From positions 42,587 to 106,586 of the forward strand of contig PHDD01000014.1 in NCBI GenBank assembly GCA_002840905.1: DNA of 64,000 nt, given 5' to 3'. Origin of the DNA: Bacteroidetes bacterium HGW-Bacteroidetes-4 (GTDB lineage: Bacteria > Bacteroidota > Bacteroidia > Bacteroidales > SZUA-534). This document shows, piece after piece, positions 6,611 to 40,217 of this stretch (positions within the stretch are counted from its first letter, which is position 1; every line of letters begins with the position of its first letter). The notes beneath the pieces were generated by a model, which was not told where the DNA came from, did no database searches, and saw nothing but the letters and a program-made list of their open reading frames with translations. The position numbers and the translations under genes were made by a program.

Positions 6611-6630
6611 ATGTATGACCTATTGTTTAT
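6611..6630 (+). promoter_or_regulatory. Candidate GntR operator, GHL10 promoter
   Basis: ATGTATGACCTATTGTTTAT agrees at 12 of the 15 fixed positions of the motif ATGTANNANNTATTANACAT seen at 11013-11032 and 40198-40217. It ends 7 bp before the candidate -7 box at 6638-6645, so it would cover the -33 region, as expected for a repressor site. Assignment to the GntR regulator at 8423 is inference. Confidence 0.5.
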
Positions 6631-6637
6631 ATTGTTA

Positions 6638-6645
6638 TAATTTTG
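6638..6645 (+). promoter_or_regulatory. Candidate -7 box TAATTTTG for the GHL10 gene
   Basis: Exact TAnnTTTG match 60 bp upstream of the chosen ATG at 6705. No good -33 TTTG was found upstream. Confidence 0.45.
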
Positions 6646-6704
6646 TTGGAATCAAGCCTCTTTTTATTACAAAAAATGAATTATTACTCAAAAAAATATG
6701 CTTT

Positions 6705-8198
6705 ATGAAACGATTGTTTATAATCCCTTTACTCTTTTATTCCTTTTCTCTTTTGGCTCAAAGTCCTAAATATGAATTTAGGGCCGTATGGGTTTCAACA
6801 GTAGCAAACATTGACTGGCCATCGAAAACTGGACTTACCAATGAACAACTCAAATCAGAAGTTATCAGAATCCTTGACAAGCAAAAAACCCTGGGAACCA
6901 ATGCCATCATTCTGCAGGTTCGTCCTACCAGCGATGCTATTTACCCTTCAGAACTGGAGCCCTGGAGTCGTTATTTATCCGGCAAACAAGGCCAGGCTCC
7001 TGAATATAGTTTTGATCCGTTGCAATTTTGGATTGAAGAGGCACACAAGCGCGCCATGGAACTTCACGCCTGGTTTAATCCTTATCGAATTCAACAAAAC
7101 ATTAACGATGAGCTGGTAGAAAATCATATTTTTAAACAGCATCCTGATTGGGGATGGGTTTATGGCAATCGCAGCTATTTTGAACCTGGCAATCCGAATG
7201 TCTGGGATTTTATTAGCAAAGTGGTTACTGATGTGGTTTCCCGATACGATGTTGATGCCATTCATTTTGATGATTATTTTTATCCCTATCAGGTAAACAA
7301 AGAAGAATTTCCCGACTCATTAGCTTTTAAAAAGTTTGGCGGCAATTTTTATCCTGACAATTTGCACGCCTGGCGTCGCCATAATGTTGATACCATCATT
7401 CAAATTCTTAGTTCAGCTATAAAAAATGAAAAGCCCTGGGTAAAATTTGGAATAAGCCCATTTGGTGTTTGGCGCAATCGCTCGCAAGATATATTTGGTT
7501 CGGAAACTTCTGCAGGAACTACAAACTACGACGCCCTTTATGCTAATATTATTAAATGGCAACAAAACGGTTGGGTAGATTATACCATGCCGCAATTGTA
7601 TTGGCGTGACGATCATCCTGCAGCAAATTTTACCACCTTAGCCTATTGGTGGAGCGACTTTACATTTGGACGGGCGATGTATCTGGGATTAGCCCCTTAC
7701 CGGATCGATAAAAAATCGGATCACAAACTATGGCGAAAACCTAAATACTTTATAAAGCAAATTGAATTACTTCGTCAAATTGAAGGTATCGACGGATTTG
7801 GATATTTTAGCAGCAAACATTTTTTTAGAGAAGATTTTAAGCGCCTCAATAAAAAACTGCAAACCAAACTTTGCGTAACCCCAGCTATTGTGCCTCCCAT
7901 GCCGTGGATTGACAATCAGGCGCCATTGCCACCGGTTAACCTCACTTTGAATGGAACCACATTGTACTGGACCGCAAGCGAAGCTTCCAACGAATTTGAT
8001 AAAGCCCGGTTTTATGTGGTTTACTATTTCCCAACAAAACAGATAAAGCAGGTTAAAGATGACAGGTATATTATTTATAGTACCGGTGAATTAAAATACA
8101 CTTTTGACAAGCTTCCTTCTGGTGGAGTAATTCGTGTAACATCGCTCGACCGGCTGAATAACGAAAGCCCGCTAAGCGATCCTATTGTTTTTCCTTAG
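6705..8198 (+). CDS. GHL10 (DUF187/YngK-like) family glycoside hydrolase, exported
   Basis: 497 residues from the ATG at 6705, chosen because a signal peptide starts there (MKRLFIIPLLFYSFSLLAQ); the in-frame ATG at 6615 would add 30 residues in front of it. The body matches GHL10 (Pfam DUF187): FRAVWVSTVANIDWPS near the N-terminus, LQVRPTSDAIYPSELEPWS, HAWFNPYR, VDAIHFDDYFYPY and WVDYTMPQLYWRDD in a TIM-barrel order. A beta-sandwich-like segment follows (PLPPVNLTLNGTTLYWT). The E. coli relative DigH (YddW) cleaves denuded peptidoglycan glycan strands, so I infer a periplasmic or outer-membrane wall hydrolase. The neighbouring regulator, murQ, kinase and amidase support this. The exact bond cleaved is not shown by the sequence. 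Confidence 0.88.
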   Translation: MKRLFIIPLLFYSFSLLAQSPKYEFRAVWVSTVANIDWPSKTGLTNEQLKSEVIRILDKQKTLGTNAIILQVRPTSDAIYPSELEPWSRYLSGKQGQAPEYSFDPLQFWIEEAHKRAMELHAWFNPYRIQQNINDELVENHIFKQHPDWGWVYGNRSYFEPGNPNVWDFISKVVTDVVSRYDVDAIHFDDYFYPYQVNKEEFPDSLAFKKFGGNFYPDNLHAWRRHNVDTIIQILSSAIKNEKPWVKFGISPFGVWRNRSQDIFGSETSAGTTNYDALYANIIKWQQNGWVDYTMPQLYWRDDHPAANFTTLAYWWSDFTFGRAMYLGLAPYRIDKKSDHKLWRKPKYFIKQIELLRQIEGIDGFGYFSSKHFFREDFKRLNKKLQTKLCVTPAIVPPMPWIDNQAPLPPVNLTLNGTTLYWTASEASNEFDKARFYVVYYFPTKQIKQVKDDRYIIYSTGELKYTFDKLPSGGVIRVTSLDRLNNESPLSDPIVFP

Positions 8199-8260
8199 CA
8201 AAAAACCAACTTTAAACAGTTAAAATTTTATAATAAAAGGTAAAGGCGTATATTTATATG

Positions 8261-8280
8261 ATGTAATACCTAAGTATAAG
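8261..8280 (+). promoter_or_regulatory. Half-match of the GntR-type motif upstream of gntR
   Basis: ATGTAATACCTA matches the left half of ATGTANNANNTATTANACAT, but the right half is not conserved. It lies about 160 bp upstream of the GntR start and about 100 bp upstream of the candidate -7 box. Autoregulation is possible but weakly supported. Confidence 0.25.
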
Positions 8281-8381
8281 ACCTGATAAATAGTTCCTAA
8301 GCAAACAATTAAAAACTAATAGATTATTTTTCAACAATTTGTAAAAATCAGAACCCTTAGATAATTATAAAAGATTATTTC

Positions 8382-8389
8382 TATTTTTG
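8382..8389 (+). promoter_or_regulatory. Candidate -7 box TATTTTTG for gntR
   Basis: Exact TAnnTTTG match 33 bp upstream of the ATG at 8423, giving a short leader of about 26 nt. Confidence 0.5.
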
Positions 8390-8422
8390 CATCACGAACA
8401 ATTAACCTAACTGTAAAATTAA

Positions 8423-9145
8423 ATGGACGATATATTTCAGAATCTGGGCAACAGACAAACCTTAAGCCAAAAAATTGAAAGGACCATCGAAAATGCCATC
8501 CGCGAGAAAAAGCTTTTGGTAGGCTCAAAACTCCCTACTGAGCGTGAAATGTGTGCGGCTTTTGGGGTAAGTCGTACAGCTTTGCGTGAGGCCTTACGTC
8601 GATTAAGTGCCCGGGGGCTTATCAATATTCAAAAAGGAAGTGGCATGTATGTTTCTGAAATACGTATTGAGGATGCCATAAATACCCTGAACTTGTATTA
8701 CGATCTCAAATTCGACAACAATTTGTTATCACAAATTATTGAAGTTCGCCGTTTATTTGAACCTGAAATTGCTAAGCTGGCTGCTAAAAACCGTTCTGAG
8801 GAGAACATTAAAGAACTCGATAAAAACCTTGTTGATTTTAAAAAATGCAACCACGACAATACGCAATTAGAAGCCGATTTAGATAATAAGTTTCACCTGA
8901 TAATTGCCAAATCGTCGGGCAATCCCATTATGCAAATTACCATGGAACCCATTTATTCGCTGCTTCCGCGGATGCGTAATTATATTTACGGAAACATTGA
9001 AGGAGAAAAAGAGAACACCTTAAAATTACATGCCCTAATTATTGAAGCCATCCGTAAAAAAGATGTGAATGAAACCTACAATCTTATGAAACAACACCTG
9101 GATCGAACACAGGAAATTTACGATAAACACTTAAAATTCTTTTAA
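8423..9145 (+). CDS. FadR-subfamily GntR transcriptional regulator (FCD domain)
   Basis: 240 residues. A winged helix at about 11-78 carries the GntR signature (KLPTEREMCAAFGVSRTALREALRRL, here split as KLPTEREMCAAFG and VSRTALREALRRL). An all-helical FCD ligand domain spans about 95-235. Residues D154, H158, H203 and H225 are placed like the metal ligands of metal-binding FCD domains, a group that often senses small carboxylates (LldR senses lactate). It sits between the GHL10 gene and murQ. The candidate operators around the kinase/amidase, NamZ/D-lactate dehydrogenase and GHL10 promoters suggest that it controls MurNAc use and may respond to D-lactate or a MurNAc phosphate. The family call is firm; regulon and effector are inference. 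Confidence 0.9.
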   Translation: MDDIFQNLGNRQTLSQKIERTIENAIREKKLLVGSKLPTEREMCAAFGVSRTALREALRRLSARGLINIQKGSGMYVSEIRIEDAINTLNLYYDLKFDNNLLSQIIEVRRLFEPEIAKLAAKNRSEENIKELDKNLVDFKKCNHDNTQLEADLDNKFHLIIAKSSGNPIMQITMEPIYSLLPRMRNYIYGNIEGEKENTLKLHALIIEAIRKKDVNETYNLMKQHLDRTQEIYDKHLKFF

Positions 9146-9148
9146 GAA

Positions 9149-9203: not shown

Positions 9204-10022
9204 TTACACAGTTTTTATATTCTGATAATTCTCAATAGCATTGCGAACAGAACCATGCAATAAGAGCAAACGTTTTGATTCATCAATACTCAAACCCAAT
9301 TCATCCATTATCATTCGGGAACCTCTTTCAATCAGTTTTTTATTGGTTAACTGCATGTCAATCATTTTATTTCCTTTAACCCGGCCCAGTTTAATCATAA
9401 CCGAAGTGGTTATCATATTCAATACCAGTTTTTGAGCAGTTCCGGCTTTCATGCGGGTACTACCGGTTACAAACTCAGGACCAACAATGGCTTCTAAAGC
9501 AATATCCACTTCTTTTGCCAATTGGGTTTCAGGATTACAGGTAATGCAAGCGGTAAAAAGCCCCGATTTTCGGGCTTCACGAACTGCACCAATAACATAA
9601 GGAGTTCGTCCCGATGCGGCAATGCCAATAACCGAATCGTTAGCATGGGGTTCGTATTGCGCCATATCGCGCCAGGCTCCCTGTTCATCATCCTCGGCCG
9701 ACTCTACTGCTTTGCGAATGGCCTGATCACCACCTGCAATCAAACCAATAACAATATCGTAAGGAACGCCAAAAGTAGGCGGAATTTCTGAAGCGTCAAC
9801 AATGCCTAAACGGCCGCTGGTTCCCGCTCCCACATAAAACAATCGCCCCCCTTTTTTAATTCGAGGTATAATTTGATCAACTACTCGCTCAATTTCGGGA
9901 ATAATTTTATTCACGGCCATATGCACAGTACTATCCTCCCGGTTAATATTCTCAAGCAATTCCTTAACCGTCATTTTTTCCAGATTGTCGTAGCGCGACG
10001 ATGATTCTGTAATATTTATCAT
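9204..10022 (-). CDS. murQ: N-acetylmuramic acid 6-phosphate etherase MurQ
   Basis: 272 residues, a little shorter than E. coli MurQ (298). MurQ splits the lactyl ether of MurNAc-6-phosphate, giving GlcNAc-6-phosphate and D-lactate in the cytoplasm. The SIS-domain signature VGAGTSGRLGIVDASEIPPTFG is present (residues 64-85, cited in parts as VGAGTSGRLG and ASEIPPTFG). Glutamates E79 and E110 are spaced as the catalytic pair of E. coli MurQ (E83/E114). GSTRMKAGTAQKLVLN follows at about 186-201. It lies 6 bp downstream of the amino-sugar kinase and reads as an operon with it, so the kinase product would feed this enzyme. The start at 10022 gives a normal N-terminus. Confidence 0.95.
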   Translation of the reverse strand: MINITESSSRYDNLEKMTVKELLENINREDSTVHMAVNKIIPEIERVVDQIIPRIKKGGRLFYVGAGTSGRLGIVDASEIPPTFGVPYDIVIGLIAGGDQAIRKAVESAEDDEQGAWRDMAQYEPHANDSVIGIAASGRTPYVIGAVREARKSGLFTACITCNPETQLAKEVDIALEAIVGPEFVTGSTRMKAGTAQKLVLNMITTSVMIKLGRVKGNKMIDMQLTNKKLIERGSRMIMDELGLSIDESKRLLLLHGSVRNAIENYQNIKTV

Positions 10023-10028: not shown

Positions 10029-10880
10029 CTAATTCTTGCTTTTTATGGTTTTATGATAGGCCACTAAATCGTCAATGGGTGATTGCACAACTCTGGGTGT
10101 TTCAAATCCTTTAGCTATCATAACCTGATTTAGAACTGCGTTAAAATGAAAAGCTATGGAACCGGCAAAAACAACCGGTAGTTCCTTGCTATGTGGTAGC
10201 TTTAGAATATTTTTAACTACAAAATCTTCCAGTGAATCATAAACTAGCTTATATATCTCCGGCTCATTAAGTTCCGCTTTTAACAAGCGCGTTAAAGATG
10301 CCAGGTAACGATTGGGTAAGGGTTTTTTATACACACTTTCAATTATGGTGTTTAAATCAAATTCACCCAATTTAATAAGTTTCTGAGACAGTTCCGGAGA
10401 AAAATCGCGTTTTAGTAAGGCATTGATAAAACGCTTCCCCATATAGGCTCCGCTTCCCTCGTCACCCAAAATATAACCCAAAGCAGGTATTTTATCAACA
10501 AGCTGCATTCCATCGTACATGCAGGAATTGGAACCCGTACCTAAAATACAAGCGATACCCGGTTTAGTTCCCAGCAAAGCTCTTGCAGCAGCAAGCATAT
10601 CGTCGTTGATAAAGATTTGAGTATTTTCTCCAAAAAACTGAACAAATATTTTAAGCAAGCCCTCTTTAATCTGATTATTTGCCAAACCAGCACCATAAAA
10701 GAAAACTTTCTCGATGGAGCTTCTATACATATTAATGTCTGACTCAGTTAAGACCCGAATAATTTGATCCTTTTCTGAAAACAAGGGATTTATACCAATG
10801 GTGGTTAACGACAGGGTTGAATCACCGTTTATCAATCGCCAATCGGTTTTGGTCGATCCTCCGTCTGCTACTAAAAACAT
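10029..10880 (-). CDS. murK: BadF/BadG-family amino-sugar kinase (MurNAc/GlcNAc kinase-like)
   Basis: 283 residues of the ASKHA kinase fold. The phosphate-1 motif DGGSTKTDW is at residues 6-14, ILGTGSNSCMYDG at about 112-124 and LGDEGSGAYMGKR at about 138-150. The family includes N-acetylglucosamine kinase and Clostridium MurK, which phosphorylates MurNAc and GlcNAc. The gap of only 6 bp to murQ makes MurNAc the likely substrate, with MurNAc-6-phosphate passed to MurQ. No signal peptide, so cytoplasmic. The gene is divergent from the amidase operon, and the shared intergenic region contains the 20-bp palindromic motif at 11013-11032. Substrate is inferred from family and context; the symbol is used by analogy. 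Confidence 0.82.
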   Translation of the reverse strand: MFLVADGGSTKTDWRLINGDSTLSLTTIGINPLFSEKDQIIRVLTESDINMYRSSIEKVFFYGAGLANNQIKEGLLKIFVQFFGENTQIFINDDMLAAARALLGTKPGIACILGTGSNSCMYDGMQLVDKIPALGYILGDEGSGAYMGKRFINALLKRDFSPELSQKLIKLGEFDLNTIIESVYKKPLPNRYLASLTRLLKAELNEPEIYKLVYDSLEDFVVKNILKLPHSKELPVVFAGSIAFHFNAVLNQVMIAKGFETPRVVQSPIDDLVAYHKTIKSKN

Positions 10881-11012: not shown

Positions 11013-11032
11013 ATGTAATATGTATTACACAT
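11013..11032. promoter_or_regulatory. Candidate GntR operator, kinase/amidase divergent promoter
   Basis: ATGTAATATGTATTACACAT contains the perfect inverted repeat TGTAATA-TG-TATTACA (11014-11029). It matches all fixed positions of the 20-bp motif shared with 40198-40217. It lies 133 bp upstream of the kinase start and 61 bp upstream of the amidase start. A near-consensus -7 box (CATTTTTG, 11037-11044) follows it 4 bp downstream on the plus strand. Confidence 0.65.
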
Positions 11033-11092
11033 TTTGCATTTTTGAATAATATGCCTTACTTTTGGAGGGCAAAATTTGATAAAAATTCAGCA

Positions 11093-14000
11093 ATGAGATT
11101 ACTAAAAACCCCTGTTTTTTTAAGTATCCTGATTATTTGCTCAGTCTTTTTAAACAAGGCGTTTGCTCAAATGCCGGCCTTACCGCACCGCAGCCCTGCC
11201 TATTCAATAATTGAATCGCTTACCAACCAGCATATCAACAGTACATTGCTCAATTATAAAACCGGTTACTATAAAAAAGACTCCACAAAAATTGACACCA
11301 TTATAATTGATGTAAAAAAGAAAACTATTGCGGTTTATTTTGATAAAAACCTTGCCAATGCTCCGTTCAGGCCTGAAACAATTAACTGGCTTGAAACGGA
11401 GGCAAAAAAAGCACTGGGCGAGTTGTATGATAACTACAACATTGAATTCTTTACTAACAAAAAATCGTTTAAATCATACATTCCCAACTACTACAGAACT
11501 TCAAAAAAGGATATCGATAAAACCAGAATTCCAAATAAGTTCAATCGCAATTCAAATCCATTGGTGCATAACAACTCAAAACCTGAGGAATATGAACCCA
11601 TATTACAAGCTATAAATATTGCACTGTGGCACAGTCATGGTTGGTATTACGAACTCACGCTCGACAGGTGGGAATGGCAAAGGGCGCGCTTGTTTCAAAC
11701 CGTTGAAGATTTAAGTACCATGGCCTATGTGCTTCAGGGAGTGGTTCCCATGCTCGAAAATGCTGGAGTTCAGGTATTCCTTCCCCGTGAACGTTCTTTT
11801 CAAACACACGAGGTTATTGTCGATAATAATGGAAGTACAGGAAATAGTATTTATCGCGAAAACATAAAATCAAAATCAGAAAATTCTGGTTTTGCCATAG
11901 GCAATCCACCTTACATTACTGAAAATCCATTTAAGCTGGGAACCTATACCCAATTTACCTCGCACAAACAATCGATGGAATTTATTGAATGGATTCCGGA
12001 GATACCTGAATCGGGCAAATACCCGGTTTACATTGCTTATCATCATCAAAAAGAGAATTCCGACAAAGCACAGTATAAGGTACATCACACCGGAGGAATT
12101 ACTGAGTTTGATGTGAATCAGCAAATAGGTGGAGAAACCTGGATTTATCTGGGCACTTTTCATTTTAATCGGGGAATTCATGCCGACTCCGGTAAAGTAG
12201 TACTGACGGGAAAAACAACTAAAAATAACCAAAACCTCACGGCCGATGCCGTTCGATTTGGTGGTGGAATGGGAAACATTAGCCGGAACGGAAAAACAAG
12301 CGGCCGACCGCGCTACCAGGAAGCTGCCCGATACTACTTACAATATGCGGGCATGCCCGATTCGCTGGTTTGGTTATTGAACCGCGAAAAAGAAAACGAT
12401 TACAGCGACGATGTTCAAAGTCGTGGTGAATGGTTGAATTACCTGATGGGAGCTCCGGCAGGTCCCACAAAAAACCGGAATATTCCCGGATTGCAAATAC
12501 CGGTTGATTTGGCGCTTGCTTTTCATACCGATGCAGGAATTGCTGGTTCTGACAGTGTGATTGGTACGCTGGGAATTTACAGCACAACCCAGGGTAATCC
12601 CGCTTTCCCCAATGGGATTTCGAAAATGGCATCGCGCGATTTGACTGATTTGATTCAAACCCAATTGGTAACCGATATTCGACAAAAATACGACACCAGC
12701 TGGATTCGTCGTGGATTGTGGGACAGGGCTTACAGTGAAGCGTTCCGTCCCAATGTACCCACCATGCTGCTCGAATTGCTTTCGCATCAAAACTTTTTAG
12801 ATGCCCGCTTTGGCTGGGAACCCATGTTCCGCTTCGACGTTTCGCGGGCTATATACAAAGGAATTCACCGGTTTTTATCTGTTCAATACAATATTCCGTA
12901 TGTAATTCAACCCTTACCTGTTTCCCATTTTAACTTACAGATAAAAAACAACAACCAACTCGAACTGAGCTGGAAACCCGTTAGCGATCCGCTGGAACAC
13001 ACCGCTGAACCGGAAGGTTACCTGGTTTACACCCGAAAAAACGGACAGGGCTTCGATAACGGACAATGGACCGATAAACCGTTCTTCCTGATTTCGAATC
13101 CTGAACCTGAAACCATTTATTCTTTTAAAGTAACCGCTGTTAATAAAGGTGGTGAAAGCTTTCCATCGGAAATACTTTCAGCCGGAATTGCTGAAAATGC
13201 ACCCGGAACCGTTCTTATTGTCAATGCTTTTGACCGCATAGCAGGTCCGGCAGCGTTGGATGAAACCCGAATGGCGGGATTCATTAACCGAATGGACGAA
13301 GGCGTTGGATACCATGCAACTATTCATTATACGGGTTCGCAATACGATTATGACCGGAATTCTCCCTGGCTCGATGACGATTCACCGGGGTTTGGTGCTT
13401 CGGGAGCCGAAATGGAAGAAAAAATCATTCCCGGAAATACCTTCGATTATAGTTTTGTTCATGGACAATCGATTCTTAACGCGGGCTATAGTTTTGTTTC
13501 CATAAGCGACGAGGCGTTTACCGAATCGTTAACAGAACCTGAAACTTATTTTATGATAGATTTTTTGGCTGGCGAAGAAAAAACACATTACCTGCCCAAA
13601 AACGATTCTGTTGCCCATTTCACTCTTTTTTCCGATGAATTGCTGAAAAATTTACAAAGCTATCTGAATCAGGGAGGTAATTTACTAATCACCGGAGCGC
13701 ACATTGGCAGCGATGTAAAACTCAATCAACAGGATTCATTGATCGGGGCAGCCTTAAAATTTAAATGGCGAACCAATCACGCATCGCGCCTGGGTAAGAC
13801 TTATTTTACCGACACCTCGTTAGCCACACAACTTAACGGCTTACAGTTTAATACCTTTTATCATCCACTGATTTACAAGGTGGAATCGCCCGACGCTATT
13901 GAACCTTACAACAATTCGTCGAAAACCATTATGCGCTATGCTGAAAATAACATGAGTGCAGGAGTTTTATACACGGGAAATTATAAAGTTGCTGCCTTTG

Positions 14001-14095
14001 GCTTTCCGTTTGAAACCATTCTGCTAAAAAACGATAGGGATGCTTTTATAAAATTGATTATTAACACATTTACAAAAGAAACAAATAAACAATAA
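11093..14095 (+). CDS. Exported N-acetylmuramoyl-L-alanine amidase with golvesin/Xly-type insert
   Basis: 1000 residues from the ATG at 11093, where a signal peptide begins ([26 protein letters not shown]); an upstream TTG at 11042 would place 17 residues before it. Amidase_3-like elements are split along the chain: [20 protein letters not shown] and [22 protein letters not shown], then ALAFHTDAG, then [13 protein letters not shown], consistent with metal-binding and catalytic residues of that fold. Between the first and second blocks sits a golvesin/xanthan-lyase C-terminal-like beta domain (YPVYIAYHH ... GKVVLTG). A fibronectin III-like segment and a long C-terminal region follow. Homologues are often labelled xanthan lyase. 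I infer that it cuts the stem peptide from MurNAc in the periplasm. It is the first gene of the plus-strand operon. Confidence 0.78.
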
Positions 14096-14115: not shown

Positions 14116-15579
14116 ATGAAAACCATTACTTGTTTTATTCCCTACCAGACTCCCGAAATTTGGGAAAATTTTTTGAAGGATTTAGAGCAAAACGATCATA
14201 TAAAAACCATTTATTTATTAGGTAAGCCAGATGCAAAAACCCAATGGAATAAAGCAAAAGCGCTGAAAACTGAGAGCATTTCTAAAACAACTACTTTAAA
14301 AAAAACTGCCGATGTTGTAGATACCGATTACGTGCTTTTAATTACTAAAGAAACCGAAATAAAACTGGGCCAGTTTGCCCTGGAACGTTTTATCAGTATG
14401 GCTGATGATACCGGCGCCGGGATGGTTTACTCTGATTACCTGCAAGTTGCCGATGGCAAACAAAGCAATCATCCGGTAATTGATTACCAGGAGGGCAGTT
14501 TACGCGACGATTTCAATTTTGGCCCGCTTTGGTTTATCAACAATGACGTTTTTAAGAATGCTGTAAACAGTTTTAGCGAGTCCTATGATTTTGCCGGTTT
14601 GTATCAACTTCGTCTGGCCATTAGCCGAAATCAGGAATTATTTCACATTCCTGAACCGCTCTATTCACAAATTGAATGGGATACGCGTGCTTCAGGAAAA
14701 AAGATTTTCGATTATGTTGACCCAAAAAACCGGCAGGTTCAAATTGAAATGGAAAAAGCCGCAACTACACATTTAAAAGCCATCGGCGGATACTTAAAGC
14801 CTGATTTTAAAGCCGTAAACCTTAACGAAGGTAATTTTCCGGTGGAAGCTTCGGTTATTATCCCGGTTCGTAACCGAGAAAAAACCATTGCCGACGCCAT
14901 TGATTCGGTGATGAAACAAAAAACGCGTTTTGACTTCAACCTAATCATTGTTGATAATCATTCAAGCGATCGAACCACTGAAATTATTCAATCGTATGCA
15001 GCAAAATACAAAAACCTGATTCATGTTATTCCCGAGCGCACCGATTTGGGTATTGGTGGCTGCTGGAACCTGGCTGTTCATCACGAACTTTGCGGAAAAT
15101 TCGCCATTCAGCTTGACAGCGACGACCTTTACAAAGACGAAACCACCCTGCAACAAATTGTGGATACTTTTTACAAAGAAAAATGCGCTATGGTGATTGG
15201 CTCGTACCAAATGACCAACTTTAAGTTGGAAGAAATTCCACCGGGATTAATTGACCACAAAGAATGGACTCCCGATAACGGACGAAACAATGCATTGCGC
15301 ATTAATGGATTGGGTGCTCCACGAGCTTTTTATACTCCGGTTTTCCGAAGTATTAAAATACCCAATACCAGTTATGGCGAAGATTATGGTTTGGGACTGG
15401 CCATCAGCCGACATTATCAAATTGGCCGAATATATAACTCCCTTTACCTGTGTCGCCGATGGGAGGACAATTCCGATGCTTCGCTCAGCATTGAAGCCAT
15501 GAACAAACACAATTATTACAAAGATAAACTGCGCACCGTGGAACTTAAAGCGCGCATACAACTAAATAAGAGCAAATAA
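14116..15579 (+). CDS. Tandem GT-A (family 2-like) glycosyltransferase
   Basis: 487 residues with no signal peptide or membrane segment. The C-terminal half (about 242-470) is a clear GT2 domain: [46 protein letters not shown] and the DxD-type motif QLDSDD at 332-337. The N-terminal half (about 1-235) has the same GT-A outline ([21 protein letters not shown]) but lacks a good nucleotide-sugar motif and may be degenerate. It lies 20 bp after the amidase gene and 55 bp before the DUF4922 gene. A soluble GT2 in a wall-recycling operon, beside a GalT-like protein, suggests transfer of a sugar to a cytoplasmic acceptor. Donor and acceptor are unknown. Confidence 0.82.
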
Positions 15580-15634
15580 CCTAAGCATTGGAAAGAAACA
15601 ATTATAAAAACTGCATTTATCATTTTATCATTCA

Positions 15635-16582
15635 ATGAATTACCAAAGCAAATCAAAAAATTTATTTCTGGAACAAAAGACCAATTGGCCGCTACTGGCA
15701 GCCAATACAGAAGGTTTAAAAAATGTACAGCTCAAAACTTTTGTGTACGATGGTTTTCAGATAAACCTACAATTTAATCCTAAGCGGATTACCTCATCGG
15801 CAGCAAAAGTGGATAAAGCATCGATTGAGGCGCGAAAATGTTTTTTATGTGCCGCAAATCGCCCCAATGAACAGTGTGGTGTTACATTTGAAAATAAATA
15901 TGAAATACTTTGCAATCCCTTTCCTATTTTTCCGGAGCATTACACCATAGCCCACAACGAACATATACCGCAGGAAATAAAGCATTCGTTTGCCGATATG
16001 TTAGCGCTGAGCAAAGCACTCCCCGATTTAGTGGTTTTTTACAACGCCCCAAATTGCGGGGCTTCGGCTCCCGACCATTTACATTTTCAGGCCGGAAACA
16101 CGGGCTTTTTACCCATTGAAAAAGAGATTGAAACACTTAAAACAACCTATGGTAAAACACGAATCAAAAAGTCAGGTCTTGAACTTACAGCCATTAACGA
16201 TGGTTTGCGAAAAATGCTTGTGCTGGAATCATCAGAAAAAGATTCGTTGATAAAAGCTTTCGAGCCTTGTTATGAATTTACCAGCAGACTGGTTCACAAC
16301 CAAGACCCCATGCTTAACATACTGAGCTGGTACAGCAATGCCTGGCGTGTAATTATTTTTCCCCGCGAAAAACACCGCCCCTGGCAATATTTTGAAGAGG
16401 GCGAAAAAAACATCCTTTTAAGTCCGGCTTCGGTCGATTTTGGGGGAACCCTGATAACTCCACTGGAAAAAGATTTTACAAAAATCAGTCGTGACGATAT
16501 AAGCAACATCATGCAACAATTGACCCTTAACGATAAGAATTTCGAAGAACTGACTGATTATTTAAAAAAAAACATTAAATAA
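15635..16582 (+). CDS. DUF4922 protein, GalT/HIT-like nucleotidyltransferase fold
   Basis: 315 residues, cytoplasmic. It matches the DUF4922 family. The catalytic-type HxHxQ motif is intact (DHLHFQ, H148-L-H150-F-Q152), preceded by CGASAP. CFLC at 69-72 occupies the place of the zinc-binding C-x2-C of galactose-1-phosphate uridylyltransferase, and NKYEILCNPFPIFPEHYTIA resembles the GalT strand region. These residues support a nucleotidyl transfer or phosphorolysis reaction on a sugar phosphate or dinucleotide. It sits 5 bp before the tandem GNAT gene. Given the operon, a MurNAc- or GlcNAc-derived substrate is plausible but unproven. Confidence 0.8.
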   Translation: MNYQSKSKNLFLEQKTNWPLLAANTEGLKNVQLKTFVYDGFQINLQFNPKRITSSAAKVDKASIEARKCFLCAANRPNEQCGVTFENKYEILCNPFPIFPEHYTIAHNEHIPQEIKHSFADMLALSKALPDLVVFYNAPNCGASAPDHLHFQAGNTGFLPIEKEIETLKTTYGKTRIKKSGLELTAINDGLRKMLVLESSEKDSLIKAFEPCYEFTSRLVHNQDPMLNILSWYSNAWRVIIFPREKHRPWQYFEEGEKNILLSPASVDFGGTLITPLEKDFTKISRDDISNIMQQLTLNDKNFEELTDYLKKNIK

Positions 16583-16587
16583 GCAAC

Positions 16588-17499
16588 ATGATTTCGGTGC
16601 AAAACTATACCGACCCTTACTTTCAGCAAGTGTTGGATTTACTCAACCAAAGCAAGTCCTTCGACAGCTTTACCGAGCCCTTGCTTAAAGAAAAAATGTA
16701 CGACGACCCAACCTGGAACCCGGAACACACCTGGATGGCTTTGCATAAAAGTAAAGTAATTGGCTTTATGCAAGGTGTTACCCGAAACATTCGCGGTTCA
16801 AAATTGGGTTATATCAAGTTAATGGCTGTGCACCCCGAATTCCGGCGTCAGGGAATTGCATCAAGGCTTTTTGAACTTTTGGAAAAGCAACTCAGTGAAT
16901 TACAAATGGAAGCCCTGCGGATTTACGATGTCCCCCTTAATTATTTTATGCCAGGTATCGATCCCCGGTACACCCCGGCTGTTTGCTTTGCCGAGAAAAT
17001 GGGATTCAAAAAAACGGGCGATGCCATTAATATGCAGGTTGATTTAATGGCTACAGATTGGGATGCATCAGAAAAAATAGCCGAATTAAAAAAAGCATCC
17101 ATTGAAATTAAACGGGCAACATTAAACGACAAAGAAGAACTTTTCGATTTTATTTCAGAAGATTGGATGCTATGGCAAAATGAGTTGGAAATGGCTTACC
17201 GATTTGCTCAACCAGCTATTTTTATTGCCCGGCAAAATGGCAGACTTAAAGCCTTTGCAGCTTACGAAGGAAACAATCAGGGAACGGGTTGGTTTGGTCC
17301 CATGGGAACACATCGCGACTTACGCGGAAAAGGTGTTGGCAATGTTCTCCTTTATCTTTGCCTGTCCGACATGAAGCATCAAGGACATACAAGCGCCACC
17401 ATTCCCTGGGTTGCCCCCATCGCTTTTTATTCACATTATGCAAATGCAGTTATCGACCGGGTTTTCTGGCGCTACGAAAAAAAACTAAAAAATGAATAA
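16588..17499 (+). CDS. Tandem GNAT acetyltransferase
   Basis: 303 residues with two GNAT domains. The first (about 1-150) has the acetyl-CoA loop in YIKLMAVHPEFRRQGIASRLFE, with the R-x-x-G-x-A motif at 86-91. The second (about 172-300) has RDLRGKGVGNVLLYLC, with R-G-K-G-V-G at 246-251. No signal peptide, so cytoplasmic. The gene starts 5 bp after DUF4922 and overlaps the SGNH gene by 8 bp, which argues for translational coupling. GNAT enzymes N-acetylate amines such as amino sugars or peptides. With an SGNH esterase next to it, it may tune acetylation of imported wall fragments. The substrate cannot be read from the sequence. Confidence 0.85.
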   Translation: MISVQNYTDPYFQQVLDLLNQSKSFDSFTEPLLKEKMYDDPTWNPEHTWMALHKSKVIGFMQGVTRNIRGSKLGYIKLMAVHPEFRRQGIASRLFELLEKQLSELQMEALRIYDVPLNYFMPGIDPRYTPAVCFAEKMGFKKTGDAINMQVDLMATDWDASEKIAELKKASIEIKRATLNDKEELFDFISEDWMLWQNELEMAYRFAQPAIFIARQNGRLKAFAAYEGNNQGTGWFGPMGTHRDLRGKGVGNVLLYLCLSDMKHQGHTSATIPWVAPIAFYSHYANAVIDRVFWRYEKKLKNE

Positions 17500-18025
17500 T
17501 CACATACTTTTTATCGGCGATAGCCTTACGCAATGGGGTAACTGGAACGAATTATTTCCACAATTTACCATTGAAAACCTGGGTCTTGCCGGCGATAAAA
17601 CCATCGACATTATACAACGGATGCCGCTTTACCAAACAAAACAAGCCACAACCATTTTTTTGATGGTTGGAATTAATGATTTAGCCAATGGAATACCCGT
17701 TGCATCGATACTGATGAATTATAATACGTTGCTTAACCAAATGCATCAATACTGGCCAACGGCAAAAATACATCTGTTGAGCTTGCTTCCTGTTGAATAC
17801 GAATCGTTTACCCATACAGCCATCTATCCTCAAAATGTAGAAAAACTAAATGCTGGAATTGCGACTTTGGCGAACGAAATAAATACTTTTTATGTTGATA
17901 TAGCTCCTGCTTTTTCTAATGGAAATGGAAATTTAAACCCAATGTACACCTACGATGGCCTACATTTGAATAATGCGGGATATTTGGTATGGAAAAAGGA
18001 AATTGAGACTTACTTACAAAATTAA
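17492..18025 (+). CDS. SGNH/GDSL-family hydrolase, leaderless
   Basis: 177 residues starting directly at the catalytic block (NNHILFIGDSLTQWG), so there is no room for a signal peptide. All four SGNH blocks are visible: GDS with the nucleophile serine near residue 10, NLGLAGDKT with the block II glycine, VGINDLANG with the block III asparagine, and DGLHLNNAGY with the Asp/His pair. The family hydrolyses acyl esters, including O-acetyl groups on sugars. It overlaps the GNAT gene by 8 bp and lies 9 bp before the SpoIID gene. A cytoplasmic sugar O-deacetylase acting on imported wall fragments is a reasonable inference. A general acylhydrolase remains possible. Confidence 0.85.
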   Translation: MNNHILFIGDSLTQWGNWNELFPQFTIENLGLAGDKTIDIIQRMPLYQTKQATTIFLMVGINDLANGIPVASILMNYNTLLNQMHQYWPTAKIHLLSLLPVEYESFTHTAIYPQNVEKLNAGIATLANEINTFYVDIAPAFSNGNGNLNPMYTYDGLHLNNAGYLVWKKEIETYLQN

Positions 18026-18034: not shown

Positions 18035-19360
18035 ATGGAATCGTCACCAAACATACAAATTGGCATAGTAAAACGCGATAAACTGAGTTTTAAACTGGCC
18101 GGAAAATTTAAAATTTCAAATACCGGTAAGAATTGCTTCAATGTTTGCCAGGCCGGCATAAAAAACGGAGCTATTGAACTTACCACTGAAAACGGAACAC
18201 AAACATTTACGAAAGAAGTAAGTTTTCTTCCCTGTAACCTTTCGGCCGATCATTTTGAAATAAAAGCGGTTACCATTGGAATCGATTTTCATTGGGAACA
18301 GGAAGAAGATCAAAGGTTTCAGGGTGCTTTAAAATTATTGGTTCTCGATGGCGCCATTCAGGCTATAAATGTTTTACCCATCGAAAACTATCTGGTCAGT
18401 GTAATTTCGTCGGAAATGAGTGCCAACAGTTCACTAAGTCTGTTAAAAGCTCACGCCATTATTTCGCGTAGCTGGTTGCTTGCACAAATTGAAAAACAAA
18501 AAAACCTAAGCAAAAAAGAAAAAGTTTATAAGCCCATCCAACAAACCGATACTGAATACATTCGTTGGTACGATCGCGAAGACCACAAGCATTTCCACGT
18601 ATGTGCCGACGACCACTGCCAGCGCTATCAGGGAATTACCCGGGCTCATAATCCACAGGTAATAAAAGCTGTACAGGAAACTATGGGAAAAGTGTTGAAA
18701 TACAAGGGAGCAATCTGTGACGCGCGCTTCTCAAAATCGTGCGGCGGGGTTGCCGAACTTTTTGAAAACTGCTGGGAACCAGTACCGCATGCCTACTTAA
18801 GCGCAGTTATTGATTCACCTGAGCCCGACAAAATTTCTACATTGGATTTACGCATCGAAAAAAATACAGAGCAATTTATCAATTCCAATCCCAAGGCCTT
18901 TTGCAATACCAGCAATGTGAAAATACTCAGCCAGGTTTTAAACGATTACGACCAATCGGCCAATGGCTTTTTCCGTTGGAAGCTTGATTATTCCCAGAAA
19001 GAACTCTCGGCACTGGTTCTGCAAAAATCGGGAATCGACTTTGGAACAATAACTGATTTAATTCCTGTGGAAAGGGGAACTTCGGGTCGCTTAATAAAAC
19101 TCAAAATAATTGGAACTAAAAAAGAACTGGTAGTAGGTAAAGAGCTGGAAATTCGCCGCTGGTTAAGCCCTACACATCTTTACAGTTCGGCCATTACCAT
19201 CGAAAAAACCAATGCTGATTTTATAATCCGTGGAGCTGGTTGGGGCCATGGTGTGGGTTTGTGCCAAATTGGAGCCGCAGTTATGGGCGAAAAAGGATAT
19301 TCTTCTGATGAAATTCTAATGCACTACTACCCGGGAGCAAACATTGAAAAAACATATTAA
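18035..19360 (+). CDS. SpoIID/LytB-domain protein without signal peptide
   Basis: 441 residues. The SpoIID core is clear: the catalytic-type glutamate E127 in YLVSVISSEMSANSSLSLLKAHAII (cited as VISSEMSANS and LLKAHAIISRSWLL), SKSCGGVAELFENCW, and near the C-terminus GWGHGVGLCQIGAAVMGEKGY. SpoIID enzymes are lytic transglycosylases that act on denuded glycan and normally work outside the membrane. Here the N-terminus (MESSPNIQIGIVKRDKL) is hydrophilic, with no signal peptide or transmembrane helix, so the protein should be cytoplasmic. It follows the SGNH gene by 9 bp and precedes an AmpG-like permease by 59 bp. I infer action on imported glycan fragments; a non-enzymatic or different role is possible. 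Confidence 0.85.
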   Translation: MESSPNIQIGIVKRDKLSFKLAGKFKISNTGKNCFNVCQAGIKNGAIELTTENGTQTFTKEVSFLPCNLSADHFEIKAVTIGIDFHWEQEEDQRFQGALKLLVLDGAIQAINVLPIENYLVSVISSEMSANSSLSLLKAHAIISRSWLLAQIEKQKNLSKKEKVYKPIQQTDTEYIRWYDREDHKHFHVCADDHCQRYQGITRAHNPQVIKAVQETMGKVLKYKGAICDARFSKSCGGVAELFENCWEPVPHAYLSAVIDSPEPDKISTLDLRIEKNTEQFINSNPKAFCNTSNVKILSQVLNDYDQSANGFFRWKLDYSQKELSALVLQKSGIDFGTITDLIPVERGTSGRLIKLKIIGTKKELVVGKELEIRRWLSPTHLYSSAITIEKTNADFIIRGAGWGHGVGLCQIGAAVMGEKGYSSDEILMHYYPGANIEKTY

Positions 19361-19419: not shown

Positions 19420-21288
19420 ATGCTGAAAACAAAAAAAACAGATAACAAAGGAGCCTGGTTCTGGGTTCCACCGCTTTATTTTGCCGAGGGAATTCCCTAT
19501 ATAATTGTGATGACTCTTTCGGTAATTTTCTACAAACGGATGGGCATTTCAAACACCGAAATTGCACTATATACCAGTTGGTTGTACTTACCATGGGTAA
19601 TTAAACCTTTATGGAGCCCCATGGTTGACATACTAAAAACCAAACGTTTCTGGATTATCGCCATGCAATTACTTATTGGTGCCGGACTGGCCGGAGTAGC
19701 TTTTACCATTCCGTTGCCAAACTTTTTCCAATATACCCTGGCTTTTTTCTGGCTACTGGCATTTAGTTCGGCCACACACGACATTGCTGCCGATGGTTTT
19801 TATATGTTGGGACTCTCAAAACACGACCAGGCATTTTTTGTGGGAATCCGCAGTACATTTTACCGCATGGCCATGCTTACCGGGCAAGGCTTGCTGGTTA
19901 TTCTGGCCGGTCACTTTGAAGCAAAAACCGGTCTCCCTCCGGTAAAAATACAGGTAAATGCTGTTTCCACCGCTGATTCGTTATACTTTAACCCTTTGGG
20001 TATCAATATACAAAGCGATTCATCAAAAACTTTCTTTTTTACTAAGGAACAGGTAGTAATCAGCCATCAGAAAATTGATAAAAAACAAGCTACGCAATTT
20101 TTAGATTCACTGGAGCAATGGAACCTGAAACACAATTTTTACCAGCCCGATACCGAAGTTAGCTTCGATAAAAACAAACAAAGCTGGTGGCAAAATAATG
20201 TTGCTTTACCTTTAAAAACGAGCCTGAGCAAACTCTTTAACACCCCAAATGCTGACCTTAACTTAAGTACAAGCGGAAATATAGGATACACTTATTTTTA
20301 CCTGAGTCGGCAACCTGCTGACAACGAAAAGGTAATTCTAAACTTTAGCCACGAACAAGGCGACAAAAGCTTATCGCTGGCAAAAAGTTACCGCTACGAG
20401 TTCACTTCTCAAAACTGGAACATACCTGCCTTTGCCGCATTTGTTGTCGACCCCAAGCTTGAAAAAGAAGCATCGGCTTTATTTGTAGGCTTATCGGGTA
20501 ATATTTCACTGGCCTGGACCATTGTATTTGCCATTATTGCCGTTGTTTTTGTCGGGTTTTTTATTTATCACCGCATGATATTACCCAAACCCCTTACCGA
20601 TCAACCCAACTTAAACGAAAACGGAAACCTGCTGAAAGAATTCGGACTCACCTTTCTGGAATTCTTTAAAAAGAAAAACATTGGAGTCATTCTTTTCTTT
20701 CTTTTAGTTTATCGACTTGGTGAATCACAACTGGTAAAACTGGCTTCACCCTTTTTATTGGATGCCCGCGAACTAAACGGACTGGGCCTCACTACCGGCG
20801 ATTTGGGGCTTATTTACGGAACCATTGGCATTGTAGCTTTAACACTGGGCGGTATAATTGGTGGAATAGCTGCATCGCGTAAAGGATTAAAATACTGGCT
20901 TTGGTGGATGGTATTGGCCATGAACCTGCCCAACCTGATGTACGTTTACCTCTCGTTTACCTTGCCCTCGTCGCTTTGGATAGTGGGCGCATCGGTAGCC
21001 GTTGAACAATTTGGCTACGGTTTTGGATTTACCGCTTACATGCTTTACATGATTTATGTTAGCGACGGAAAATACAAAACAGCCCATTTTGCCATAACCA
21101 CCGCATTTATGGCTTTAGGAATGATGATACCGGGAATGATTAGCGGTTGGCTTCAGGATATAATTGGTTATCAGAACTTTTTTGTTTGGGTAATGTTTTG
21201 CACCATCCCAAGTTTTATTATTATTCCTTTTTTAAATGTTGACCCCCAATTTGGGAAAAAAATAACAACACAAGACACTGCAAACTAA
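19420..21288 (+). CDS. AmpG-like MFS permease with large periplasmic insertion
   Basis: 622 residues, about 12 membrane helices. The N-terminal half matches AmpG-type muropeptide permeases: PPLYFAEGIPYIIVMTLSVIFYKRMG, LPWVIKPLWSPMVDI, ATHDIAADGFYM and RSTFYRMAMLTGQG (each 26 residues or fewer in the protein, quoted in part). AmpG imports GlcNAc-anhydroMurNAc muropeptides with proton symport. Residues about 166-362 between helices 5 and 6 are hydrophilic, an extra domain of about 195 residues that topology places in the periplasm; E. coli AmpG has no such domain. Helix 6 starts at about 363 (NISLAWTIVF). It is the likely import step for the surrounding operon. The exact substrate is inferred. 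Confidence 0.82.
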   Translation: MLKTKKTDNKGAWFWVPPLYFAEGIPYIIVMTLSVIFYKRMGISNTEIALYTSWLYLPWVIKPLWSPMVDILKTKRFWIIAMQLLIGAGLAGVAFTIPLPNFFQYTLAFFWLLAFSSATHDIAADGFYMLGLSKHDQAFFVGIRSTFYRMAMLTGQGLLVILAGHFEAKTGLPPVKIQVNAVSTADSLYFNPLGINIQSDSSKTFFFTKEQVVISHQKIDKKQATQFLDSLEQWNLKHNFYQPDTEVSFDKNKQSWWQNNVALPLKTSLSKLFNTPNADLNLSTSGNIGYTYFYLSRQPADNEKVILNFSHEQGDKSLSLAKSYRYEFTSQNWNIPAFAAFVVDPKLEKEASALFVGLSGNISLAWTIVFAIIAVVFVGFFIYHRMILPKPLTDQPNLNENGNLLKEFGLTFLEFFKKKNIGVILFFLLVYRLGESQLVKLASPFLLDARELNGLGLTTGDLGLIYGTIGIVALTLGGIIGGIAASRKGLKYWLWWMVLAMNLPNLMYVYLSFTLPSSLWIVGASVAVEQFGYGFGFTAYMLYMIYVSDGKYKTAHFAITTAFMALGMMIPGMISGWLQDIIGYQNFFVWVMFCTIPSFIIIPFLNVDPQFGKKITTQDTAN

Positions 21289-37561: not shown

Positions 37562-37563
37562 TT

Positions 37564-38319: not shown

Positions 38320-38751
38320 CTATTTCTTTTCAAGTTCGCGCAAATCGCTAATTTTTAGTTGTAGTTGGGCTACCTTGTTTTCTTTTTCCTGCGAAAAGGT
38401 TTTCGATTCTTTTACCACAAACTGCAGCACTACCAAAGCTTTTTCATAAAACACCAAACTCTCCTCGTTTTTCCCCTGACGGTAATAAAGTTCGGCCTGT
38501 GTGTTAAAAAGTTCAGCTAAAACCTCCAAATGGCCATAAGAATAATTGTGTTCTTTTAATAAATGGTGGGTCAGTTTTTCGATCGGCAAATTATTAAAAT
38601 AGGCAGCATCCTGTTTCAAAAAATCGGTGAAAGCCGCTTCTATCATTTCGTTTACCCGGTTAAACTCTCCTTTTTTTAAAAAACTCATCATTCCAGCAAC
38701 AAATTCGCCAAGCATTTCGAGCATCTTCATTATATAATCTTTTTGGTACAT
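38320..38751 (-). CDS. DUF6483-like small helical protein
   Basis: 143 residues, mostly alpha-helical, with no signal peptide. The N-terminus MYQKDYIMKMLEMLGEFVAGMMSFLKKGEF matches the DUF6483 family as I remember it (cited as MYQKDYIMKMLEMLGEF). A TPR-like helix pair follows (LAELFNTQAELYYRQGKNEE, YEKALVVLQFV) and a coiled-coil tail (KENKVAQLQLKISDLRELEK). Its stop is adjacent to the LytTR stop (convergent). The role is unknown; the TPR-like helices suggest protein binding. Confidence 0.75.
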   Translation of the reverse strand: MYQKDYIMKMLEMLGEFVAGMMSFLKKGEFNRVNEMIEAAFTDFLKQDAAYFNNLPIEKLTHHLLKEHNYSYGHLEVLAELFNTQAELYYRQGKNEESLVFYEKALVVLQFVVKESKTFSQEKENKVAQLQLKISDLRELEKK

Positions 38752-38865
38752 GGCTGGATGATCTAAATTAAAAGTAATTAAAGCCCTGTTAATAAACTAA
38801 TTTTTAAAAACTTAAAGATAAACAATAAAAGTAAAACGGCGCAAAACCTAAGTGCATCAAAATCA

Positions 38866-40137
38866 TTAATACAAATAATACTTTTGCGATTCAGCTTTAA
38901 ATTTTGCCGCATCGCGCTCCCATAGGGGTTTTATACGGTCAAAATTAAAATCTTCCATCAAAGCTTTACGGATAGTATCGGTACCACAACCCAAATCGAA
39001 CATTCGGTAGCGGCTTTCCTTTCCTTTAAAAATATCGAACGATGGATTGAGTTGATGGGCTACCTGTAAAAAGTAAAACTGTATTTGCGTGAGATTGGCT
39101 TTTTTAAAATCGGTGATATGCACCTGAACACCTTGCAATTCCTGTCCTTTTTTTGCCTGATAATACGGTTTAAAATAAATAGGCCTGAATAACACTCCTT
39201 CAAAGTTTAATGCATTCATGGCATCGGCCAGACTATCGGCATTAATGTTTTCGGTGGCCAGGGTCTGAAACGGCAGGGTGTAACCAATACCAATCAGGTT
39301 GGGATCAATTTCACCAATAATACCGCTAACTGCGTAATAAAAAGCCGACTCATAATGCGGAATATGTGGCGAAGTTGGAACCCACTGCAAACCGGTTTCT
39401 GCAAAAGTCATTTCGCGTGCGTACCCCTGCATGGGAACTACTTGTAAGCTGCATTGTTTTCCTTCGGAAAGCAAACCCTCGTAATTCAGCATACGCGTAA
39501 GTTCACCCGCTGTAAGCCCATACAAATAAGGAATTTTAAACTGACTGACAAACGAAAAAAAACCCTCGCTCACCAAAGGCCCTTCAACACGCTCACCTCC
39601 CAACGGGTTTGGGCGATCGAGCACCACCACTTCTTTTCCAAAATCGGCAGCGGCTTCCATTACAAGTCCCAACGTGCTGATGTAGGTATAGGAACGTGCT
39701 CCGATATCCTGAATATCGTACACCATCACTTCGATCAGAGCCATTGCTTCAGCATTGGGTTTGCGGTCTTTTCCGTAGAGCGAAAAAACAGGAAGGCCGG
39801 TTTTGCTATCGGTTTGGTTCCCTACCTTATCGCCAGCCGAAAAGTTACCGCGTACGCCATGTTCGGGGCCAAAAAGAGCAACCAGGTTTACCAACTCACT
39901 TTCGTGTAAAATATCGATAGTCGATTTTAGATGGCTGTCAACTCCGGTGGGATTGGTGACCAATCCTACGCGTTTACCCTGCAAAATCGAAAAGTTGTCT
40001 TGTTGTAAGACTTCGAGTCCCAATAAAAATGGTATTTCGGCTTTCGTTTCCTCAGGGGTTAAAACTACCGTTTCGCTTGTTTTACATCCTGCAAAAGCCA
40101 ATAAAAAAAACACCAATACCTGAGCATAATTTTTCAT
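38866..40137 (-). CDS. namZ: NamZ-type exo-beta-N-acetylmuramidase (DUF1343, GH171), lipoprotein
   Basis: 423 residues from the ATG at 40137, chosen because it starts a lipoprotein signal (YAQVLVFFLLAFAGC). DUF1343 signatures are clear: GKRVGLVTNPTGVDSH, VALFGPEHGVRG, GLPVFSLYGKDRKP, VYDIQDIGARSYTYISTL, VLDRPNPLGG and LQWVPTSPHIP. B. subtilis NamZ of this family releases MurNAc from the non-reducing end of glycan strands. Here it would act in the periplasm or at the outer membrane and supply MurNAc for the kinase and MurQ. It is divergent from the D-lactate dehydrogenase gene, sharing the candidate operator at 40198-40217. Enzymatic function is by family. Confidence 0.9.
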   Translation of the reverse strand: MKNYAQVLVFFLLAFAGCKTSETVVLTPEETKAEIPFLLGLEVLQQDNFSILQGKRVGLVTNPTGVDSHLKSTIDILHESELVNLVALFGPEHGVRGNFSAGDKVGNQTDSKTGLPVFSLYGKDRKPNAEAMALIEVMVYDIQDIGARSYTYISTLGLVMEAAADFGKEVVVLDRPNPLGGERVEGPLVSEGFFSFVSQFKIPYLYGLTAGELTRMLNYEGLLSEGKQCSLQVVPMQGYAREMTFAETGLQWVPTSPHIPHYESAFYYAVSGIIGEIDPNLIGIGYTLPFQTLATENINADSLADAMNALNFEGVLFRPIYFKPYYQAKKGQELQGVQVHITDFKKANLTQIQFYFLQVAHQLNPSFDIFKGKESRYRMFDLGCGTDTIRKALMEDFNFDRIKPLWERDAAKFKAESQKYYLY

Positions 40138-40164
40138 AGCAATTCCGTATTTTATTTCGGAAAA

Positions 40165-40172
40165 CAAATATA
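40165..40172 (-). promoter_or_regulatory. Candidate -7 box TATATTTG for namZ
   Basis: Exact TAnnTTTG match on the minus strand, 28 bp upstream of the namZ start. The candidate GntR operator lies 25-45 bp further upstream, at and beyond the -33 region. Confidence 0.5.
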
Positions 40173-40197
40173 ATATTTAATTTTACAAGCCTATAAG

Positions 40198-40217
40198 ATG
40201 TATGACATATTATACAT
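40198..40217. promoter_or_regulatory. Candidate GntR operator, namZ/D-lactate dehydrogenase divergent promoter
   Basis: ATGTATGACATATTATACAT is an imperfect palindrome (ATGTAT / ATACAT arms). It is identical to the kinase/amidase site at 15 of 20 positions, defining ATGTANNANNTATTANACAT. It ends 17 bp before the dehydrogenase start and overlaps a near-consensus -7 box (TACATTTA, 40213-40220). Confidence 0.65.

Follow-up and report, generated by a model that had tools for sequence, protein, structure and literature searches.

The described systems closest to the one reported here are governed by MurR, which is an RpiR-type protein, by NanR, the FCD-type GntR protein associated with sialic acid in Escherichia coli, and by the hydroxy-acid regulators LldR, GlcC and DhdR, the last of which is the regulator for D-2-hydroxyglutarate. 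The present analysis concerns a stretch of 64,000 nucleotides (hereafter referred to as the window) from Bacteroidetes bacterium HGW-Bacteroidetes-4 of the order Bacteroidales (GCA_002840905.1, contig PHDD01000014.1, positions 42,587 to 106,586), which carries a gntR gene for an FCD-type GntR protein, several genes for the degradation of peptidoglycan and a 13-bp box, ATGTATKACMYAT, in their promoters. The box is real, conserved and operator-like, and it is tied to this one gntR gene and to the peptidoglycan-scavenging genes. It is probably the operator of the GntR protein (8423-9145), a predicted repressor of a peptidoglycan-scavenging regulon that would be released by a breakdown product of the wall sugars, most likely N-acetylmuramic acid 6-phosphate (MurNAc-6-P); binding by the GntR protein, the sign of control and the ligand are what we infer, here from sequence comparison.

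MurR of E. coli is described as keeping the murQ operon repressed while MurNAc-6-P is lacking (PMC5061867, in the part available). The window resembles this system in the local control of murQ and of MurNAc catabolism, window-type gntR adjoining murQ in many relatives, but its regulator is an FCD-type GntR protein, and the regulon predicted here takes in more genes, at scattered loci. NanR provides the nearest NCBIfam model and the best structural match, and N-acetylated sugar acids figure in both systems; however, NanR is reported to bind direct repeats of TGGTATAW (PMC4494728, as excerpted), whereas the window has a single GT-N3-AC box. LldR, GlcC and DhdR share with the window regulator the FCD family and the GT-N3-AC operator core, with weaker profile matches, but window-type gntR sits with murQ and the wall genes, and a whole clade of its orthologs has lost metal-site residues. 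The murTKQ cluster and NamZ of Tannerella forsythia (PMC10465942) comprise enzymes of the kinds found here, namely a kinase, MurQ and exo-muramidases; this cluster, compared here by its description only, differs in that the available part of that account mentions no GntR regulator. Among the open-licence PMC papers covered, mostly by listing, no regulator of this kind was found for peptidoglycan-sugar catabolism in Bacteroidota, and a compendium of 634 FadR-subfamily regulators (PMC4494728) contains, in the part available, none from Bacteroidetes.

Methods

Two collections of genomes were compared. An evenly drawn sample of the order comprised 247 genomes, and searches found the GntR protein in eight of them and murQ in 56. 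Among the 48 murQ-holding genomes without gntR (gntR-), 46 were taken as controls, the partial matches G071 and G099 being excluded, and 45 were scored, one locus (L188) having no upstream DNA. A search for relatives of the GntR protein in named genomes yielded 111 stretches, of which 80 were kept. Among the 46 of these loci that hold murQ, 40 were scored at the kinase gene and five over 1600 bp before murQ, while one had no DNA. Unlinked loci, with murQ outside the fetched gntR flank, were sought in 35 genomes with gntR (gntR+); murQ was found in 31, of which 30 were scored at the kinase gene, the remaining one being G027. The namZ comparison covered 39 genomes.

Promoters were scored with a matrix of 15 positions built from 27 distinct boxes upstream of the kinase genes of relatives, with no window sequence included, and a box was called at a score of at least 14. 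A structure model of the GntR protein, of modest quality (predicted template modelling score, pTM, 0.58), served for fold comparison only.

Results and discussion

The box and its sites in the window

The box was derived from three window sites, which begin at 6611, 11020 and 40198 (Table 1). The initial annotation had described a 20-bp motif, ATGTANNANNTATTANACAT, and this does fit 11013-11032 and 40198-40217 without mismatch and 6611-6630 with three mismatches in 15 positions; at up to three mismatches it gives 10 matches where 4.2 +/- 1.9 are expected, a number reached in none of 100 shuffles. Its register and its extent did not survive. The alignment was off by 7 bp at the first site because the box begins at 11020 and not at 11013, and a shift of seven bases at this exact site brings ATGTATTACACAT (11020) into line with ATGTATGACATAT (40198) and ATGTATGACCTAT (6611). 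Genome-wide, at up to two mismatches, the 20-mer gives 25 matches against 27 for the reversed pattern; since the reversed pattern matches as often, the 20-mer has no signal outside its two defining sites, and it was rejected as a unit and as a search pattern. The common unit of the sites is the 13-bp FadR-type box. The promoter positions assigned earlier stand: one site separates kinase-murQ from the amidase-like operon, one separates namZ from the dehydrogenase gene and one precedes GHL10. The half site proposed upstream of gntR at 8261 was discarded, its matrix score of 9.0 lying at chance level.

In the 4.32-Mb genome, ATGTATKACMYAT matches the three window sites and has no fourth exact match. 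With two mismatches allowed it gives 600 matches against 666 for the reversed pattern, and in this form it was rejected as a search pattern. A wider form, ATGTAWKACMNAT, has seven matches in the genome, namely the three window sites, one intergenic site and three sites within or at the end of coding sequences. The core of the box is GT-N3-AC, of the ATGTATKAC type, in agreement with the published consensus for FadR-subfamily GntR operators, in which TKGT and ACMA boxes are usually separated by a gap of 3 nt (PMC4494728, as excerpted); the GT-N3-AC box would be the operator of the GntR protein of the window.

When both strands of the window were scanned with the independent matrix, the three sites ranked first, in the order 40198, 6611 and 11020. 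The next matches lie at 6385, at 40566 (14.6, within the dehydrogenase gene) and at 6549, those at 6385 and 6549 being additional to the sites of the initial annotation. Chance would be expected to produce 0.4 matches at 14 or above, and 7.2 at 9 or above, per 64 kb. GHL10 is preceded by the box in seven relatives as well.

Occurrence of the box in genomes with and without gntR

In the gntR loci of relatives, murQ is present in 46 of 80, often with the kinase gene, the amidase-like gene and the remaining cluster. The box lies upstream of the kinase gene in 39 of the 40 linked loci scored there, the fortieth having 124 bp of upstream DNA, and all five loci scored over the longer region before murQ reach at least 15.6. 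These 39 loci were the source of the matrix, and the fair tests therefore lie in the other sets. Where gntR and murQ are unlinked, 26 of the 30 kinase promoters carry the box; in the gntR- genomes of the same order that hold murQ, it was found at none of the 45 kinase-murQ promoters, the best score being 11.0, and a looser regular expression matches two of these (11.0 and 10.6 by the matrix). In the order sample, five of the eight gntR+ genomes, the one containing the window included, have the box, with scores of 15.6 to 22.2, and murQ itself occurs in all eight gntR+ genomes against 48 of the 239 gntR- genomes (Fisher 5e-6). Thus, the presence of the box follows that of gntR across genomes, even when the two are not neighbours, and the GntR protein is therefore likely to switch the wall genes together. 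The proposal of the initial annotation that scattered wall-sugar genes form a joint regulon is borne out by the shared box and by its association with gntR, and relatives have kept the sites, which was one of the checks named there.

Window-type namZ orthologs carry the box in 13 of 21 cases, while none of the nine weaker-scoring, paralogous namZ rows scored does so (Fisher 0.003); the namZ paralogs constitute an internal control for the box. By visual inspection, four of the eight window-type namZ orthologs without the box have TTGTATGACGTATTAT between namZ and the dehydrogenase gene. The dehydrogenase promoters reach 14 in only three of the 24 scored, all within the genus of the window, and in one of the three (L257) the best match is to a different site. 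In L100 the box that namZ and the dehydrogenase gene have in common scores 15.3; dehydrogenase promoters score 11.7 in two Marinifilum/Labilibaculum loci, variants occur in a middle clade, and little is found elsewhere. The dehydrogenase was accordingly rejected as a constant member of the regulon, to which it belongs only in certain clades. Autoregulation was likewise rejected as a general rule, a box scoring at least 13 lying upstream of gntR in only nine of the 80 loci.

The refined pattern ATGTAWKACMWATWTT gave 18 matches in 28 gntR+ genomes, 10 of them at kinase-murQ promoters and two at GHL10, so that the genome-wide clustering at wall genes envisaged earlier is seen in 12 of 18. In 28 gntR- genomes there were eight matches, none of them at murQ, and the reversed pattern gave 11.

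Several observations weigh against this reading, beginning with the rarity of the box before the dehydrogenase gene. Four of the 30 unlinked promoters lack a box at the threshold (two with the kinase behind another gene, the exceptions G267 and G268 included, one with 103 bp and one with a weak variant scoring 8.9), and in four of the 35 gntR+ genomes murQ was not found. In the order sample, G084 has gntR and no box (best score 1.7), and no box was found in the 139 bp before murQ in G027 or in the about 140 bp before it in G136. The reversed ATGTAWKACMWATWTT gives six matches in the 28 gntR+ genomes, so about six of the 18 matches may be background. A strong intergenic box of the window's own genome, ATGTAATACCAATTTT (C10:42085-42100), has a bile-acid-symporter-like gene, without a clear wall role, about 370 bp downstream, and is possibly an extra target or a chance match. 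Kinship among the genomes enters into the counts, and the co-occurrence of gene and box may partly reflect shared ancestry.

Two alternatives address the box itself. The absence of genome-wide enrichment of the 20-mer, and of the 13-mer at two mismatches, might suggest that AT-rich promoter DNA produced the sites by chance. The contrast between gntR+ promoters, linked and unlinked, and gntR- promoters already contradicts this, and among 1540 pieces of 400 bp drawn at random from these loci only 35 reach the threshold, real boxes included; we give this explanation practically no credence. Alternatively, some other regulator might bind the box, gntR being merely inherited alongside, for which G084 could be cited. 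This is very improbable, given that the box is missing from every scored gntR- murQ promoter, that it occurs at unlinked loci and that its core is of the FadR type.

Boxes were also observed at other genes of relatives. In Draconibacterium orientale (L254) a box precedes an HGSNAT-type gene, and in Mangrovibacterium lignilyticum (L248) one lies, by visual inspection, between a serine-hydrolase-like and a SusC/TonB-receptor-like gene; these are possible further wall or amino-sugar targets.

Position of the box in the promoters

Bacteroides promoters are described as having TAnnTTTG at -7 and TTTG near -33 (PMC7366714, in the part available). Among 64 promoters that read in the amidase direction, 50 have the box centred 31-33 bp before TANNTTTG (28 of 39 at linked loci, 22 of 25 at unlinked ones); the distance in the window is 32 bp. 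In another 10 the box lies 14-16 bp upstream of the -7 element. It overlaps a -7-like element in three of 13 namZ and four of nine gntR promoters. The varied distances between box and promoter, some placing the box on the -7 element, favour a repressor. This argument is weakened by the composition of the box, whose ACAAAT end reads on the opposite strand as the ATTTG of a -7 element, so that overlaps can arise by chance. A further point against the general reading is that no TANNTTTG was found beyond the 40198 box on the dehydrogenase side.

The fixed distance at the amidase promoter leaves room for an activator. FadR acts in this way at fabA, sitting immediately before the -33 element, and the same GntR protein and box might work likewise at the amidase promoter. 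The recurrent spacing of 31-33 bp speaks for such a role, while the shorter spacing in 10 of the 64 promoters and the boxes lying on the -7 element of namZ and gntR promoters speak against it; on balance activation appears rather unlikely, and repression is the preferred mode.

The GntR protein and its probable ligand

The regulator exceeds the Pfam cut-offs for both the GntR model (73 bits) and the FCD model (80 bits). The nearest NCBIfam model is that of NanR (146 bits, below the cut-off of 260), and LldR follows with 94 bits (cut-off 311). The Pfam scan detected neither an RpiR nor a SIS domain, and the architecture is thus not of the MurR type. Foldseek searches with the model (pTM 0.58) gave matches to NanR, the best of them and crystallised with sialic acid, to FadR and to DhdR.

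The window protein and 50 of the 81 rows retain, at the aligned positions, D154, H158, H203 and H225, which we take to be the FCD metal ligands, as judged from the sequence alignment only. In the other 31 rows (among L024 and L028-L090), D154 is replaced by Ile and H225 by Leu or Gln, and H203 is replaced in 19 of them as well. The loss of D154 and H225 corresponds to one change on the tree (support 98/85), and the clade has kept the box and the linkage to murQ, an argument against a ligand whose binding depends chiefly on the metal. Invariant in all 81 rows are R109, E113, D145, Q148, E150, D152, H158, R183, R185, Y189 and E195.

The initial annotation had favoured D-lactate as the signal, and a sensor of D-lactate or of another small hydroxy acid would have several points to commend it: MurQ releases D-lactate, the box at 40198 is shared by a D-2-hydroxyacid dehydrogenase, DhdR is among the structural matches, and the window protein and 50 orthologs retain all four metal-site residues. 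FadR-subfamily proteins, moreover, often sense carboxylates (PMC4494728, as excerpted). The proposal now looks unlikely, as 31 of the 81 orthologs have lost two or three of the four residues and kept the box, and the dehydrogenase promoters carry it so rarely. Because one clade lost two or three of the metal-site residues and kept the box, MurNAc-6-P is favoured over D-lactate, and the ligand would be held by more than the metal, as MurNAc-6-P, to which the unrelated MurR responds, could be.

A bolder proposal, which we put forward tentatively and hold to be less probable than its opposite, is that the FCD-type GntR protein represents a non-orthologous replacement of MurR in Bacteroidales, sensing MurNAc-6-P with conserved arginines and polar residues instead of the FCD metal. 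One clade could then have dropped metal-site residues and kept the regulon, and the regulator would command the whole chain from the cutting of wall glycan to sugar phosphate and lactate.

Genes of the window

The features of the window are listed in Table 1. The namZ/dehydrogenase pair lies about 29 kb from the kinase-murQ/amidase pair, and the genes from 11093 onward are predicted to form one operon, as judged by strand and spacing.

Table 1. Features of the window discussed in the text (positions are those of the window; scores are those of the independent matrix)
Feature	Position	Strand	Evidence or remark
Candidate second box TTGTATTACAAAT	6385..6397	+	GHL10 intergenic region; matrix 15.4
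Candidate third box TTGTATGACAAAT	6549..6561	+	GHL10 intergenic region; matrix 13.8
Box ATGTATGACCTAT	6611..6623	+	Upstream of GHL10; matrix 18.3
GHL10 protein, Cwp19 homolog	6705..8198	+	Pfam GHL10; PDB Cwp19 E 3e-88
Putative half site upstream of gntR	8261..8273	+	Matrix 9.0, chance level
gntR, FCD-type GntR regulator, 240 aa	8423..9145	+	Pfam FCD 2e-22, GntR 1e-20
murQ, MurNAc-6-P etherase	9204..10022	-	NCBIfam TIGR00274 311.8 bits, cut-off 302
Sugar kinase, predicted MurNAc kinase	10029..10880	-	PDB homologs including 8ow9 'Putative novel MurNAc kinase' E 4e-55
Box ATGTATTACACAT	11020..11032	+	Between kinase-murQ and amidase-like operon; matrix 15.6; kept in relatives
Predicted -7 element TACTTTTG, amidase-direction promoter	11057..11064	+	37 bp past box start; spacing recurs in relatives
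Secreted amidase-like protein, Golvesin_C and fn3	11093..14095	+	Amidase_3 match weak, E 0.006, below cut-off
GT2, DUF4922, GNAT and GDSL genes, same predicted operon	14116..18025	+	Domain matches
SpoIID/LytB-domain protein	18035..19360	+	TIGR02669 178 bits, cut-off 83
AmpG-like muropeptide transporter	19420..21288	+	TIGR00901 178 bits, below cut-off 350
Glucosamine-6-phosphate-deaminase-like (NagB-like) protein, PIG-L-like region	21365..23686	+	NF002557 201 bits, below cut-off; weak Pfam matches
namZ, exo-beta-N-acetylmuramidase	38866..40137	-	Pfam NamZ_N and NamZ_C
Box ATGTATGACATAT	40198..40210	+	Between namZ and FAD/Fe-S dehydrogenase; matrix 19.0, best of the window
FAD/Fe-S D-2-hydroxyacid dehydrogenase	40234..43080	+	D-lactate the presumed substrate

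According to the preferred reading, the GntR protein would sit on the box and repress the promoters of the regulon until a wall-sugar product, MurNAc-6-P being favoured, releases it. As judged by homology, wall glycan would then be cut by the Cwp19-like GHL10 protein, the SpoIID protein, NamZ and the amidase-like protein, and the fragments taken up by the AmpG-like transporter; the kinase would phosphorylate MurNAc and MurQ cleave its lactyl ether to give a sugar phosphate and lactate, the NagB-like protein would deaminate, and in some clades the dehydrogenase would oxidise the D-lactate released. Cwp19 of C. difficile is described as a lytic transglycosylase (PMC6016235, in the part available). 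The dehydrogenase is related to the D-2-hydroxyglutarate dehydrogenase YdiJ and to LctD, and D-lactate is its probable substrate on grounds of homology and gene context.

The kinase is homologous to structurally solved kinases of MurNAc and N-acetylglucosamine. In G267 (L208:637-2304) kinase and MurQ form a single frame of 555 residues, with MurQ at residues 289-540, and G024 has a comparable frame of 560 residues at murQ; such natural fusion supports the view that the kinase acts on MurNAc. In L022 the SpoIID gene, the transporter gene, the NagB-like gene, the dehydrogenase gene and gntR are consecutive, which directly links the dehydrogenase to wall genes; a box was looked for upstream of this dehydrogenase gene and not found. 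The GT2, DUF4922 (weakly similar to diadenosine tetraphosphate (Ap4A) phosphorylase) and GNAT genes at 14116-17499 accompany wall-degradation genes in many relatives, and directly behind the predicted operon (23763-26198) lies the gene for a phosphodiester glycosidase (NAGPA) that carries a Por secretion tail.

Conclusion

The role proposed here for an FCD-type GntR protein is performed in E. coli by MurR, an unrelated protein. The box makes the regulator directly testable, and it connects with a likely pathway several genes of unclear function, those for the GT2, DUF4922, GDSL, amidase-like and GHL10 proteins. The clade that has lost metal-site residues provides a natural experiment on ligand sensing by FCD proteins with and without these residues.

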